This document shows, in pieces, positions 628 through 10,579 of a stretch of 22,616 nt of DNA. The notes beneath the pieces were generated by a model. The model worked only from the letters and a program-made list of their open reading frames with translations, was not told where the DNA came from and did not search any database. Source of the DNA: a virus. The stretch's first letter is position 1. Each line of letters starts with the position of its first letter. Where the stretch lies: positions 1 through 22,616 of IMG/VR virus record IMGVR_UViG_3300031963_012204. One strand, written 5' to 3'. The translations under genes were made by a program, and so were the position numbers.

Positions 628-989
628 ACTGCATTACCCTCGTCGGCAGAGCCGGCCGAGATCCTGAGGTCCGGTATTTTGAATCCGGCTCCATGGTCGC
701 CAACCTTTCGATTGCGGTGAACCGCCGCCGGGACGAGGATCCCGAATGGTTCAACCTTGAGATCTGGGGCAAAGCCGCCCAGGTCGCTGCGGACTACGTG
801 CGGAAGGGTTCGCTGATCGGCGTGATCGGTTCTGTGAAAACGGAAAAATGGACAGACCGCGCCACCGGCGAAGAGCGCAAAAAGACGGTCGTCCGGGTTG
901 ACAACCTGACACTGCTCAGCTCCAAACGCGACTCCGAGCCGTCGGACGGTGGTGGATTTGCGCCCAGCGAGGAAGAGGTGCCTTTCTGA
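624..989 (+). CDS. ssb: Single-stranded DNA-binding protein (SSB)
   Basis: A 121-residue protein with the bacterial SSB OB-fold: it opens [18 protein letters not shown], continues with an ANLSIAVNR strand and [21 protein letters not shown], and ends in a short acidic tail, EEEVPF, matching the DDIPF-type tip that recruits partner proteins. The linker before the tip is unusually short compared with cellular SSBs of about 150-180 residues. It would coat ssDNA during replication and recombination. The start overlaps the pentapeptide gene by ATGA, and its stop shares one base with the sigma factor start, so the three are probably co-translated. The RecT and RecE-like genes downstream make a recombination role likely. 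Confidence 0.95.
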
Positions 990-1831
990 TGGATTCCCTC
1001 GGAACCTACCTGCACGAGATCGGCCGCGTACCGCTTCTCACCACGACCCAGGAGATCCAACTGGGGCGTCAGATCCAGGCGATGCAAGCACTCGAAGCCG
1101 AAGGCCGTACTGAGCTGACCCGTGATGAGCAACGGATCATGCGGAACGGCAAGCGTGCGATGGACAAGATGATAAAATCCAACCTCCGATTTGTGGTCAC
1201 CATCGCCCGCAAATACCATTACGTCTGCCAGACACTGGAACTGGCGGATGTGATCAGCCTGGGAAACATCGGGCTAGCGACTGCTGCGCGTAAGTTCAGG
1301 CCAGAGCTTGGCTACAAGTTCTCGACCTATGCGTATTGGTGGATCCGGCAGAGCATCACACGCGGAATCAATAATGAAGATCGGTTGATCAGGCTTCCGG
1401 TACATCAGTTCGAGCGGATCGGCAAGATCCGCAACCTGCGGATGAAGCATCCGGGGATGACGATCGATGAAGCTGCTGCCAAGTTGAAGATTTCGATCCA
1501 TGATCTACGGCCGGCATTGCTGGCGTGGACATTGGCGAGCCTGGATAAGGAGGCCGTCGAGGATGGCACAACGATCGGCAGCACAGTTTCGGATGTTACC
1601 CAGTGTCCGGATGATGAGTTGCTGCGGACAACAGCGAACGATGAGGTGCAGATGGCACTGAGTGCATTGAAGCCTGAAGACCGAAACGTGATCGAGTGGC
1701 GGTTTGGGTTCAAAGGGCAGATGGCGCTATCAGAGATCGGCAAAAGAACTGGAGTATGTCGGGAACGTGTGCGACAACGCGAGAAGCGTGCGCTGCTGCG
1801 GTTGCGGTCGTTATTGCAGGTGGCGGGATGA
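989..1831 (+). CDS. Sigma-70 family RNA polymerase sigma factor
   Basis: A 280-residue sigma factor lacking region 1.1. Region 1.2 is DSLGTYLHEIGRVPLLT; regions 2.1-2.4 run through SNLRFVVTIARKY and FSTYAYWWIRQSITRGI; region 3.0 has RLPVHQFERI; region 4 ends with a helix-turn-helix, LSEIGKRTGVCRERVRQ. YAYWWIRQ resembles cyanobacterial group 2 sigmas. Residues equivalent to E. coli sigma70 Q437 and T440 (-12 contact) and H455 and E458 (extended -10) appear kept, so -10 recognition is probably near the housekeeping type. In region 2.2, however, the core-binding DLIQEGN motif reads DVISLGN, changing the positions of Q406 and E407. It probably directs host RNA polymerase to phage promoters. Its start overlaps the ssb stop by one base; its stop overlaps the next start by ATGA. 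Confidence 0.93.
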   Translation: MDSLGTYLHEIGRVPLLTTTQEIQLGRQIQAMQALEAEGRTELTRDEQRIMRNGKRAMDKMIKSNLRFVVTIARKYHYVCQTLELADVISLGNIGLATAARKFRPELGYKFSTYAYWWIRQSITRGINNEDRLIRLPVHQFERIGKIRNLRMKHPGMTIDEAAAKLKISIHDLRPALLAWTLASLDKEAVEDGTTIGSTVSDVTQCPDDELLRTTANDEVQMALSALKPEDRNVIEWRFGFKGQMALSEIGKRTGVCRERVRQREKRALLRLRSLLQVAG

Positions 1832-6062: not shown

Positions 6063-6877
6063 CGCTGCTCCCCTTCCTCCTGCACCTCCCCGACGGCAAG
6101 CGTCGCCGCGGTGCGGTCAGGGCCCGTGATTGGGCCACTGGCATGGATGCCTTGTGGACCCGCTACCCCGGGGCATCGGTCCAGCTCACCATGCTCGCCT
6201 CATCGCCACCCTCAAACACTGCCCCCGTCGCCGCCACTGAACGGCTCCCGCTGGCACAGGCTGAGGCCATCGCTGATTCGATGGGCACCGGCAGTCCCGC
6301 CCTGGATCGGATCGTGGAGAGGCTCGGCAGCACCGCCGACCCCAAACGCCGCTACGAGTACGTGCTGTGGCTGGCCAAGAAGCTGCCTCCCCTGCCGGAG
6401 GACTACCGGCAGGACGTGTTCAAGGTGCGGGGCTGCGTGTCGCAGGTGTATGTGGTGGGGCAGCTGCAGGAGGGGCGCCTGCATTGGCAGGGCGATTCGG
6501 ATGCGGCAATCACCAAGGGGCTGATAGCGTTGCTGGTCGAGGGTCTGGAGGGCCTCACCCCCGCCCAGGTGGAAGCCCTCGATCCGGCCTTCCTGGCCGA
6601 CACCGGGCTGCAGGCGAGCCTCACGCCCTCGCGCGCCAACGGCTTCCTGAACATCTTCCGGATGATGCAGGCCCAGGCCCGCTCCCTCAGCGCCGACATC
6701 CCGCGGTTCACATCTCGTCGCTGGTCCGCGGTGTCGGTGCCGGTGGCGACCGCCAGGAACAATTCCCGCACCAGCCCTTCAATCGGTGCGGCTGGTGCTG
6801 ACTGCAGACACGCGGCGACGGCTGCTGCAGACTCCTGCCGGGCGGTGGCCGCCGCCGAGGCGTTCCTGAGGGCCTGA
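6059..6877 (+). CDS. sufE: SufE sulfur-acceptor domain fused to a phage-like N-terminus
   Basis: A 272-residue ORF in three parts. Residues 1-44 look like a short phage protein (HLPDGKRRRGAVRARD). Residues about 75-213 are a full SufE domain: PALDRIVERLGSTADPKRRY, then KVRGCVSQVYV with the sulfur-accepting Cys at 126, WQGDSDAAITKGLIALL, and SLTPSRANGFLNIFRMMQ. The last 58 residues are Ala/Ser/Arg-rich and unlike SufE. SufE takes persulfide sulfur from the cysteine desulfurase SufS and passes it to the SufBCD scaffold. The gene may be translated as one fusion from ATG 6059 (ATGA overlap), or SufE may start at the internal ATG 6191 or 6281. It looks like host-derived cargo inserted behind a truncated or short phage gene. 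Confidence 0.82.
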   Translation: MTLLPFLLHLPDGKRRRGAVRARDWATGMDALWTRYPGASVQLTMLASSPPSNTAPVAATERLPLAQAEAIADSMGTGSPALDRIVERLGSTADPKRRYEYVLWLAKKLPPLPEDYRQDVFKVRGCVSQVYVVGQLQEGRLHWQGDSDAAITKGLIALLVEGLEGLTPAQVEALDPAFLADTGLQASLTPSRANGFLNIFRMMQAQARSLSADIPRFTSRRWSAVSVPVATARNNSRTSPSIGAAGADCRHAATAAADSCRAVAAAEAFLRA

Positions 6878-8160: not shown

Positions 8161-8427
8161 ATGACCCAGTTCCTCAGCATCACCGACACCGGAGGCCGGA
8201 TTGGCCGGATCCGGTGGAGCAACACGTCCCCCCGATCCCGCCTGTGGGGCAACGTGTGGTGGGATCTGTCGTGGCCGCACCAGAGGCCGCCACTGAGCCG
8301 ATTCGCTGCCTTGTTCGCCGAGATCGCCGACAACGCCGCCCTGGCCGCCCAGGTGCTGCAGTCCTCGGTTGAGCGGGCCACCGAGGCTGTGCGGGAGCTG
8401 GGCAAAGCCTTTGGGAGGCTGCAATGA
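8161..8427 (+). CDS. Hypothetical protein with helical C-terminus
   Basis: An 88-residue protein from ATG 8161 (a TTG at 8134 would add nine residues). It opens MTQFLSITDTGGRIGRIRW, has a Trp-rich middle (WGNVWWDLSWPHQ) and a long Ala-rich amphipathic helix (ADNAALAAQVLQSSVERATE). It ends with an ATGA overlap to the 45-residue ORF. I recognise no domain; it may be a small oligomeric phage protein. Confidence 0.6.
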   Translation: MTQFLSITDTGGRIGRIRWSNTSPRSRLWGNVWWDLSWPHQRPPLSRFAALFAEIADNAALAAQVLQSSVERATEAVRELGKAFGRLQ

Positions 8428-8561
8428 CCCGCCCCTACCTCGCCACCCTCGCCAACGGCACCACCGCCCGGCTGATGGCCGTGAGCCGTGCTGCAGCGAT
8501 CCTCACGGCACGCGAGCTGTTTACCACCGTCGTCCGTGTCGTGGAGGATGGGGACTGGTGA
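8424..8561 (+). CDS. Small hypothetical protein
   Basis: A 45-residue protein, MTRPYLATLANGTTARLMAV at its start and an acidic VVEDGDW end, with a helical middle (SRAAAILTARELFTTVVRVV). The ATGA junction with the previous gene supports translation. Its 3' end overlaps the end of the minus-strand gene at 8521-8718 tail to tail, so transcription from the two sides would collide here. No family recognised. Confidence 0.5.
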   Translation: MTRPYLATLANGTTARLMAVSRAAAILTARELFTTVVRVVEDGDW

Positions 8562-8718
8562 CTGCCTCCTCTCCGTCATCGTCCCAGCCTTCCTCCACCT
8601 CCAGCAGCGTTTCCGCCAACAGTTCCATATCGGCCGCCACGTCCGATAGGTCAAGGTCGATTTGCATGAAGGCCAACACAGCACAGCACCGCTCAAGGTA
8701 GCGACTGTCGGACAACAC
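8521..8718 (-). CDS. Small acidic protein, divergent from cyAbrB
   Basis: Reading down from GTG 8718, the minus strand encodes 65 residues: SDSRYLERCCAVLAFMQIDL, DLSDVAADMELLAETLLEVE, then a very acidic EGWDDDGEE and a basic tail. This is a natural-looking acidic helical protein, and bases 8562-8718 have no competing + strand gene, which supports it as real. It would be transcribed away from cyAbrB. An ATG 17 codons in is an alternative start. No family recognised; acidic small phage proteins sometimes act as anti-repressors or DNA mimics, so an interaction with cyAbrB is worth testing. Confidence 0.55.
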   Translation of the reverse strand: MLSDSRYLERCCAVLAFMQIDLDLSDVAADMELLAETLLEVEEGWDDDGEEAVTSPHPPRHGRRW

Positions 8719-8766
8719 TACAAACGCTACCGCCTGTGGTCGGTATCATTACCACCGAGATGCACA
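8697..8766. promoter_or_regulatory. Divergent control region with inverted repeats upstream of cyAbrB
   Basis: GGTAGCG (8697-8703) and CGCTACC (8725-8731) form a 7-base inverted repeat with a 21-base spacer, spanning the start of the minus-strand gene. TATCAT at 8744-8749 matches five of six bases of a -10 box for cyAbrB and sits inside a smaller dyad, GGTA-N4-TACC (8742-8753), so a protein bound there would block the promoter. No good -35 is present. The GGTAGCG motif recurs at 9145-9151, but also inside unrelated genes such as the helicase, so its specificity is unproven. Confidence 0.5.
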
Positions 8767-9156
8767 ATGCACATGATGGCGCTGACCGGTGACGAACTCC
8801 TGCGGCGGGTGAATGAACTGAATGCCGAAGGGGCGAACAAGACCAGGCTCGCCCGTGAGACGGGCTATATCACCCAGAAGAAGGACGGCACCGAACGGGT
8901 CAATTTCACCGGGTTCTATGAAGCCCTGCTGTCGGCCCAAGGCACGATCAGCAAACGACCGAAACGCAAGCCCGGTCGGCCCGGTCGCCCGCTGTCGTAT
9001 CGAACCAGGGTGCTGAGCGGCGTGGGTCATGCCGTCGTCGGTGCCCGCTACCTGGATCAGATCGGAGTGAGCGAGGGGGACATGCTGCAGATCAGCGTCA
9101 GCCGCGGCCGGCTCACCCTGACCCCCATCCGTGGCGAGTCTCGCGGTAGCGATTAG
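8767..9156 (+). CDS. abrB: cyAbrB-type transcription regulator
   Basis: A 129-residue protein matching the cyanobacterial AbrB (cyAbrB) layout: an N-terminal cyanobacteria-specific domain (ALTGDELLRRVNELNAEG, GYITQKKDGTERVNFTGFYE ALLSAQG) and a C-terminal swapped-hairpin AbrB domain (YRTRVLSGVGHAVVGARYLD, then GVSEGDMLQISVSRGRLTLT). Cellular cyAbrBs are global regulators of carbon/nitrogen balance and of other genes in cyanobacteria. The start is one of ATG 8767, 8773 or 8776, all in phase; 8776 gives the canonical M-A-L-T-G. It has its own promoter candidate and terminator, unlike the operon genes around it. In a phage it could serve as repressor of a lysogeny switch or mimic the host regulator. 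Confidence 0.88.
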   Translation: MHMMALTGDELLRRVNELNAEGANKTRLARETGYITQKKDGTERVNFTGFYEALLSAQGTISKRPKRKPGRPGRPLSYRTRVLSGVGHAVVGARYLDQIGVSEGDMLQISVSRGRLTLTPIRGESRGSD

Positions 9157-9182
9157 TATTGATGCGGTAGGTCGGGGTTCCG

Positions 9183-9210
9183 GGGCTCTCTGAGGGGGGA
9201 GCCCTTTTTT
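9183..9210 (+). terminator. Rho-independent terminator after cyAbrB
   Basis: The stem GGGCTC (9183-9188) pairs with GAGCCC (9199-9204), followed at once by six T (9205-9210). It lies 26 bases past the cyAbrB stop and isolates the regulator from the RecT operon. Confidence 0.9.
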
Positions 9211-9409
9211 GTGCGGTATGGTTTGCGGATCGGTCATCACCACCGCCACCGATCTAGACCACATGGTATGGGCTCCGCGATGCCCCTTGGCTGTAGCCGT
9301 GGGCACATCCGGCAGCGGCCGTGATGGAGGTTGCCAAACGGTAGGGAACGTGGTTAGGGTGTGTGCAGGTTCTTCATCAGGACCGCAATCACCCCTTACC
9401 TGAGTTTTT
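9211..9409. promoter_or_regulatory. Non-coding control region before recT
   Basis: About 200 bases without a supported gene. GATCGGT (9228-9234) and ACCGATC (9248-9254) form a 7-base dyad with a 13-base spacer. It is flanked by two direct copies of GGTATGG at 9215-9221 and 9265-9271, exactly 50 bases apart. This is a plausible operator or replication/recombination protein site. A weak promoter candidate is TTGCCA (9331-9336) with TTAGGG (9354-9359) at 17-base spacing; the -10 is poor. Confidence 0.45.
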
Positions 9410-10579
9410 ATGCCCCGAACAGCAGCGGCGCCCAGTCGAAACGGCGCCATTCAGCAAGTGCAGACCCGCCCGGCGGCGGGTGCGTTGCAGCCCGCGCAGG
9501 CCGGCACCGTCGAGGCAGCCCTCCAGGATCCCGCCGTTAAGGGCCAACTCGCTCGGGCCCTTCCCTCATTCATCACAGCCGATCGCTTCCTGCGGGTCGT
9601 GCAGACCGAGGTGAGGAAGACCCCGGAGCTTGCTCGCTGCAGCCCGGCGAGCTTCATGGCTTCCATGATGACCGCCGCGCAGCTTGGGCTGGAGATCGGC
9701 GTCAACGGTGGCGCATTCCTGGTGCCCTACAAGGGAATCTGCAGCTTCGTCCCCGGATGGAAAGGGCTGGTCGACCTTGTGTCTCGCACCGGCCGCGCCA
9801 CGATCTGGACCGGCGCCGTGTTTGAAGGTGACGAGTTCGACTATGCCTTGGGCGATAGCCCATTCGTCACCCATCGCCCCGGCGATGAATCCGACCCTGA
9901 GCGGCTGACGCACGTCTATGCAATCGGCCGGGTTCGGGGCAGCGAGTTTCCGATCATTGAAGTCTGGACCGCAAACAAGATCTGGCAGCACCGCGACAAG
10001 CACAACAAGCAGGGCCAGAAGCATTACAGCTATCGCAACCCTGAGATGTATGCGCGGAAGGTGCCACTACTGCAGGTGATCAAGTATCTGCCGACTTCGA
10101 CGGAGCTGGCGATTGCGCTCGACGCCAACGATCAGGCCGAGATCGCACCGGTGACGGTCACTGTGTCGCAGCCCAAAGCGCCGCAGTTGCCGGCCGATTC
10201 GCAGCCTGCTGCCGACGCCGTGGATGCCACCACGCCGCAGCCCCAATCCGACCCCCCCGCCCCGATCGCCACCATCAGCCAGGAGCAGTTGGAAACGATC
10301 ATAGGCGCGATGGAAAACCGCCTCGGCGCCGTCGGATCCGAAGCGTTCGTCACTGAGGTCTGTGCAGTGATGCAGGTGGAGGATCTGAGCCAACTGCCCG
10401 CCGATGCGTTCTCCGCCGTCATGAAGTCCCTGGCCGATAATGCCGCGGTCGCCGCATGGGGCGAAGGCAAGAGCCGCCAGGGCCGGCAGTTGATCAGCCC
10501 GGAGCGGATCCAGGAACTGCTGAGCGACCCATCGCCTGAGCTGCCGCTGCAGCCGGCGGCCATGCCGGAGTTTGACTGA
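9410..10579 (+). CDS. recT: RecT-family single-strand annealing protein
   Basis: A 389-residue RecT/Redbeta-like recombinase. The core runs from about residue 30 to 240: ITADRFLRVVQTEVRKTPEL, SPASFMASMMTAAQLGLEIG, a LVPYKGICSFVPGWKGLVDL segment and HYSYRNPEMYARKVPLLQVI. These match the RecT fold that anneals complementary ssDNA and promotes strand invasion. After about 240 there is a Pro/Ala/Gln linker and a C-terminal helical domain ending in an acidic tail, longer than the E. coli Rac RecT (269 residues). It starts at ATG 9410, after the non-coding region. With SSB and the RecE-like nuclease it forms a Red-like pathway. Its stop shares a base with the next start. Confidence 0.93.
   Translation: MPRTAAAPSRNGAIQQVQTRPAAGALQPAQAGTVEAALQDPAVKGQLARALPSFITADRFLRVVQTEVRKTPELARCSPASFMASMMTAAQLGLEIGVNGGAFLVPYKGICSFVPGWKGLVDLVSRTGRATIWTGAVFEGDEFDYALGDSPFVTHRPGDESDPERLTHVYAIGRVRGSEFPIIEVWTANKIWQHRDKHNKQGQKHYSYRNPEMYARKVPLLQVIKYLPTSTELAIALDANDQAEIAPVTVTVSQPKAPQLPADSQPAADAVDATTPQPQSDPPAPIATISQEQLETIIGAMENRLGAVGSEAFVTEVCAVMQVEDLSQLPADAFSAVMKSLADNAAVAAWGEGKSRQGRQLISPERIQELLSDPSPELPLQPAAMPEFD

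Follow-up and report, generated by a model that had tools for sequence, protein, structure and literature searches.

The question raised by this locus is what a cyAbrB regulator does on a viral genome, and whether the very small acidic gene that faces it is its partner. In cyanobacteria, carbon, nitrogen and day-night metabolism are under the control of cyAbrB-type proteins, which show H-NS-type silencer behaviour. We know of no protein antagonist of cyAbrB, and to our knowledge little has been established about lysis-lysogeny control in cyanophages. In the available part of the sparse literature that treats cyAbrB or AbrB together with phages or cyanophages, a phage-borne cyAbrB was not described. 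The window, meaning the whole 22,616-base stretch analysed here (IMG/VR record IMGVR_UViG_3300031963_012204), is linear and probably a fragment. Its plus strand encodes an SSB, a sigma-70-like factor, a helicase, a DNA methyltransferase, SufE, several small genes, the cyAbrB, RecT and a RecE-type exonuclease, and late genes, among them those for a lysozyme and a collagen-repeat fibre, occupy the minus strand of its right part. The sigma-70-family factor (989-1831, plus strand; phrog_351, 5.9e-70) lies in the early region, and phage-specific promoters served by it are possible. The RecT-like annealing protein gene (9410..10579, plus strand; phrog_148, 4e-53) was the constant neighbour downstream of cyAbrB.

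The cyAbrB open reading frame (ORF) that a sequence-only reading had proposed on the plus strand proved to be real. Its product matched PF14250 at 1.9e-10 and 41.1 bits against a curated cut-off of 25 (41.9 bits when the search was run on DNA), and only the start, previously placed at 8767 or upstream, had to be moved to the ATG at 8773 or 8776, giving a gene at 8773/8776..9156. PHROG and NCBIfam searches with this protein returned no match. The one close relative (L002:5001-5360, 65% identical) is on a 40.5-kb viral contig, of which L002, L005 and L009 are all parts. The window protein is basic (pI 10.5, charge +9). In a structural model built from 34 viral sequences the N-terminal part was confident, with three helices and a small hairpin, and the C-terminal AbrB hairpin was weaker. 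The ten best Foldseek matches were AbrB, MazE or SpoVT chains, the top ones including the AbrB N-domain, with probabilities of 0.57-0.99; the best E value was only 0.06, with none below 0.001, and pLDDT was about 65-78 in the C-terminal AbrB-type region. By this ranking the C-terminal end of the protein is predicted to adopt an AbrB-type beta fold. The same kind of fold is found in the MazE/SpoVT-AbrB antitoxins, although the MazE Pfam score of the window protein was below the cut-off. Like cyAbrB1 and cyAbrB2 of Synechocystis (PF14250), it has its AbrB-type domain in the C-terminal half and a basic charge; unlike them, it is viral, has a divergent AbrB half, adjoins RecT and an acidic gene, and occurs as one copy per record. 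A single PF14250 copy was found in each of the 15 RecT-group records searched whole, that of the window included.

Viral cyAbrBs were common in metagenomic viral contigs and absent from PHROGs. With a broader pattern scan, cyAbrB relatives were confirmed in 94 viral stretches, of which the best 80 were kept. These fell into a RecT-linked group and a larger group (for example L010, L014-L018 and L035-L039) without an acidic partner, many members of which immediately follow a gene whose end (GHDHMNDALGYVIWREFNPL) we take to be that of a large terminase. About 60 viral cyAbrBs, mostly behind this terminase-like gene, were without an acidic partner. The window cyAbrB was 32-36% identical to cyanobacterial plasmid copies, and the only two non-viral members of the cyAbrB tree were both plasmid copies. 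Genome scans with window-derived patterns found no host genome relative of the phage cyAbrB. A protein search of 50,697 phage records gave only partial matches, to the N-terminal half, in the cultured cyanophages B23 (L003:2965-3393) and P-TIM68 (L004:2007-2165, a gene of about 52 amino acids); from this comparison, these two proteins could be dominant-negative forms, like truncated H-NS.

In other RecT-group contigs a family of small acidic proteins (for example MEIDLDLWPLVEPLVPLLEELERVEALAAEE) is encoded on the plus strand just before cyAbrB. When IMG/VR was scanned with the acidic family alone, 17 contigs were recovered, eight of them outside the cyAbrB loci kept earlier. A cyAbrB lay 60-284 nt downstream of the acidic gene in all 16 evaluable contigs, and the seventeenth contig ends 25 nt after the match. 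Four of the 17 contigs had identical acidic sequences and others were close, so that the independent cases are fewer, about a dozen at most. Among the RecT-linked loci with enough upstream DNA, the acidic gene was on the plus strand in 16 of 19; the exceptions were L046 and, with a divergent ORF, the window and L009. Of the loci lacking RecT, a single one contained the acidic gene, on a contig that stops short of RecT. The order of the slot is GDW gene, acidic gene, cyAbrB and RecT, the GDW gene being a small gene, ending in GDW, that stands ahead of the acidic one in several of the related phages; in the window its homologue is at 8424..8561 on the plus strand (profile E value 4e-4 among 3127 ORFs; BLASTP 6e-8 to L012:7508-7675). 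Across all loci, 17 contigs have the acidic gene ahead of cyAbrB and co-directional with it; it is divergent only in the window and L009, in the same slot, where from the gene order it looks as if it had been inverted in place. The family matched no Pfam or PHROG entry, toxins included, had no convincing relative in the PDB, and was not found in sequenced phages or plasmids. The earlier suggestion that the acidic protein partners cyAbrB was strengthened by this survey, in which every evaluable member of the family adjoined a viral cyAbrB gene. Since the two genes are adjacent in related viruses, the acidic protein is probably a dedicated partner or off-switch of cyAbrB, and the pairing appears to be a gene partnership so far undescribed, which the window probably shares. 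In a subgroup of loci (L097:4192 onward, L098 and L102) the cyAbrBs have a long acidic C-terminal tail as well as an acidic partner gene. Between cyAbrB and RecT, many relatives carry a 251-residue gene with a weak HTH match (L011:2122-2877 and equivalents) that is missing in the window.

In the window, the minus-strand ORF facing cyAbrB is a likely member of this family. It lies at 8521..8667, exactly between the GDW gene homologue and cyAbrB and reversed in direction, encodes 48 amino acids (MQIDLDLS...), and aligns to L002:4744-4908 on the minus strand. The product has a pI of 4.05 and a charge of -11, and was predicted to be helix only, as one helix followed by an acidic tail. The ORF had been read as a 65-residue protein from a GTG at 8718; the ORF itself is present and probably real, but that length is too long. 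The start is assigned to the ATG at 8667 on the evidence of the relative, in which the only usable start is the codon aligned with this ATG, a stop lying three codons ahead of it. About 108 nt separate the acidic and cyAbrB start codons in the window. In L009 the minus-strand ORF next to the acidic ORF looks like a secreted protein.

The 7-base inverted repeat GGTAGCG/CGCTACC, to which an operator role had been given, is indeed present between the genes (8697-8703/8725-8731). However, when the 108-nt intergenic region was shuffled, 8% of the shuffles contained such a dyad, as did 20% of 108-nt window pieces, and L009 lacks the right arm; as a conserved operator the repeat was rejected as chance-level and absent from the relative, and as an RNA hairpin it was rejected with a z score of -0.34. 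No known RNA family was found in the region. The left arm lies within a 12-mer, TCAAGGTAGCGA (8693..8704; TCGCTACCTTGA on the minus strand), that recurs exactly in L002/L009, 23 nt from the acidic start codon there and 25 nt from it in the window, and that may serve the acidic gene as its -10 region. The TACCTT within it fits the C-rich TANNNT type of -10 reported for SigE (PMC11368403). The smaller dyad claimed over the -10 fared better: GTGGT-N10-ACCAC is present at 8736..8755, centred on the -10-like TATCAT (8744-8749) of cyAbrB, and has a counterpart with the same centre in L002/L009, in the form GGTC-N8-[GT]ACC. The number expected in shuffles of the intergenic region was 0.003, for a dyad that had been noticed before the calculation, and a role as operator is plausible. 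In seven RecT-group loci the cyAbrB promoter carries ATTGC-N4-GCAAT, another symmetric element; these loci are related and do not make seven independent cases. Behind cyAbrB there is a strong intrinsic terminator, as had been claimed (9182..9211, plus strand; a 10-pair stem and a T run), which is also found in L002 (5422-5444). With this terminator and the -10-like site, cyAbrB can be read from the sequence as its own transcription unit. In a sigma-70 promoter scan of both strands no full promoter reached threshold. Right behind the terminator, GGTATGGT (9215..9222, plus strand) is a candidate -10 of the RecT unit, matched in L009 by GGTATCGT in the corresponding position, and GGTAT[GC]GT is found behind the terminator and ahead of the RecT unit in the window and L002. 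An operator common to the cyAbrB and RecT promoters was rejected, the local alignment scores being reached by 189 and 734 of 1000 shuffles.

The reading that we favour, tentatively, is that these genes form a conserved cyanophage regulator-modulator pair in front of the RecT/RecE recombination genes, in which cyAbrB would be a repressor, or autorepressor, and the acidic protein of about 45 residues likely its antagonist. From the two genes, their tight linkage within the group and the symmetric element at the cyAbrB promoter, all of them visible in the sequence, we infer DNA binding and repression by cyAbrB and antagonism by the acidic protein. The basic cyAbrB, with its AbrB-type fold, would recognise symmetric DNA at its own and nearby early promoters and repress these promoters, and the acidic protein (pI 4) would bind cyAbrB and relieve this repression, as AbbA does with AbrB. 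In the lineage of the window the acidic gene would have been turned round in place, so that both genes start from one 108-nt intergenic region; the divergent layout is a local variant and not the basis of the system. Support for the pair model comes from linkage, slot synteny, the opposite charges (-11/+9), promoter symmetry in two subgroups, the AbrB-type fold and the AbbA precedent. Counted against it are the weak profile match of the window ORF, antisense conservation, a cyAbrB/RecT promoter motif that did not exceed chance, and the binding mode of host cyAbrB2, which binds long AT-rich tracts and not a tight operator (PMC11368403). AbbA, the acidic anti-repressor of Bacillus subtilis AbrB, is a DNA mimic, and like the phage pair it combines a small acidic protein with an AbrB-type regulator (PMC4238804). 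Unlike AbbA, the acidic family was predicted as helix only and had no AbbA sequence match among solved structures (its profile against PDB chains gave none at E values up to 10); the phage genes, unlike abbA and abrB, are adjacent.

The weak profile match bears on whether the window has the acidic gene at all, since that gene could have been lost, leaving an ORF with a chance resemblance. With the acidic-family profile the window ORF was the best of 1002 six-frame ORFs, but with an E value of only 0.19 (0.0076 when the search was limited to a 1.2-kb region). The overlapping plus-strand frame is conserved between the window and L009 about as well as the acidic ORF, so that pairwise conservation is no proof of minus-strand coding; pairwise codon bias was rejected as proof as well, the strands being indistinguishable. 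The promoter scan also favours the absence of a gene. On the other side, slot, start, length and charge are all the same, and the ORF is 49% identical to that of L009, which itself shares 4 nt with the start of the next gene-like ORF on the minus strand. In the first profile, the ORFs of L009 and the window also ranked first and second of 1002 (E values 0.71 and 0.84). Loss of the gene is unlikely, and membership in the family is probable, resting on slot, start, length, charge and the weak profile match. If the gene is real, its divergence from cyAbrB recalls cI/cro-type lysis-lysogeny switches, in which divergent small genes likewise head early genes, and the sequence-only reading had seen the layout of a genetic switch. 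The divergent genes and two dyads are physically present, but as a general design the switch was not supported: 17 other contigs have the two genes in the same direction, the 7-bp dyad is neither above chance nor conserved, and the acidic product of the window has no Pfam domain, DNA-binding or other. An operator common to the two divergent promoters was not found, with this dyad at chance and the promoter scan below threshold. A lambda-like switch built on the 7-bp dyad is thus highly improbable.

Other readings keep both genes and change what they do. The acidic protein could be a co-regulator that acts together with cyAbrB, through stability, cooperativity or contact with RNA polymerase. 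The linkage data agree with this, and the same-direction order is also typical of subunits made together; such a role is nonetheless unlikely, as a promoter-like site and a terminator belong to cyAbrB itself and about 60 viral cyAbrBs do without the acidic gene. Alternatively, the phage cyAbrB could be aimed at the host, competing with or poisoning host cyAbrB and lifting the silencing of phage DNA, with the acidic protein targeting the host copy. Host cyAbrB2 is a nucleoid-associated silencer (PMC11368403), and the N-terminal-half matches of B23 and P-TIM68 look as a dominant-negative would. The phage protein, however, has both halves and is present in exactly one copy in each of the 15 records, and the promoter symmetry in two subgroups and the adjoining early genes fit self-regulation as well, leaving a host-directed role improbable. 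Toxin-antitoxin pairs with MazE/SpoVT-AbrB antitoxins differ in that the acidic partner resembles no toxin family of Pfam or PHROG. Within the favoured regulator-modulator reading, a bolder version, which we consider rather unlikely, is that the acidic micro-proteins are an undescribed phage family of specific cyAbrB antagonists (DNA mimics) that control an early-gene decision and possibly disarm the host cyAbrB silencer too.

A cyAbrB carried by a virus together with a tiny protein dedicated to it would offer a direct and cheap test case for a cyAbrB antagonist, and the pair a handle on lysis-lysogeny control in cyanophages. A serine recombinase was looked for and not found in the window fragment; it was present in 6 of the 15 RecT-group records, that of L009 included, which makes a temperate life cycle plausible for part of the group. 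SufE is an iron-sulphur cluster assembly factor, and the phage-encoded SufE of the window (6071-6877, plus strand; PF02657, 135.8 bits) is probably an auxiliary metabolic gene. At positions 1-480 a pentapeptide-repeat gene shows long open repeat frames on both strands.
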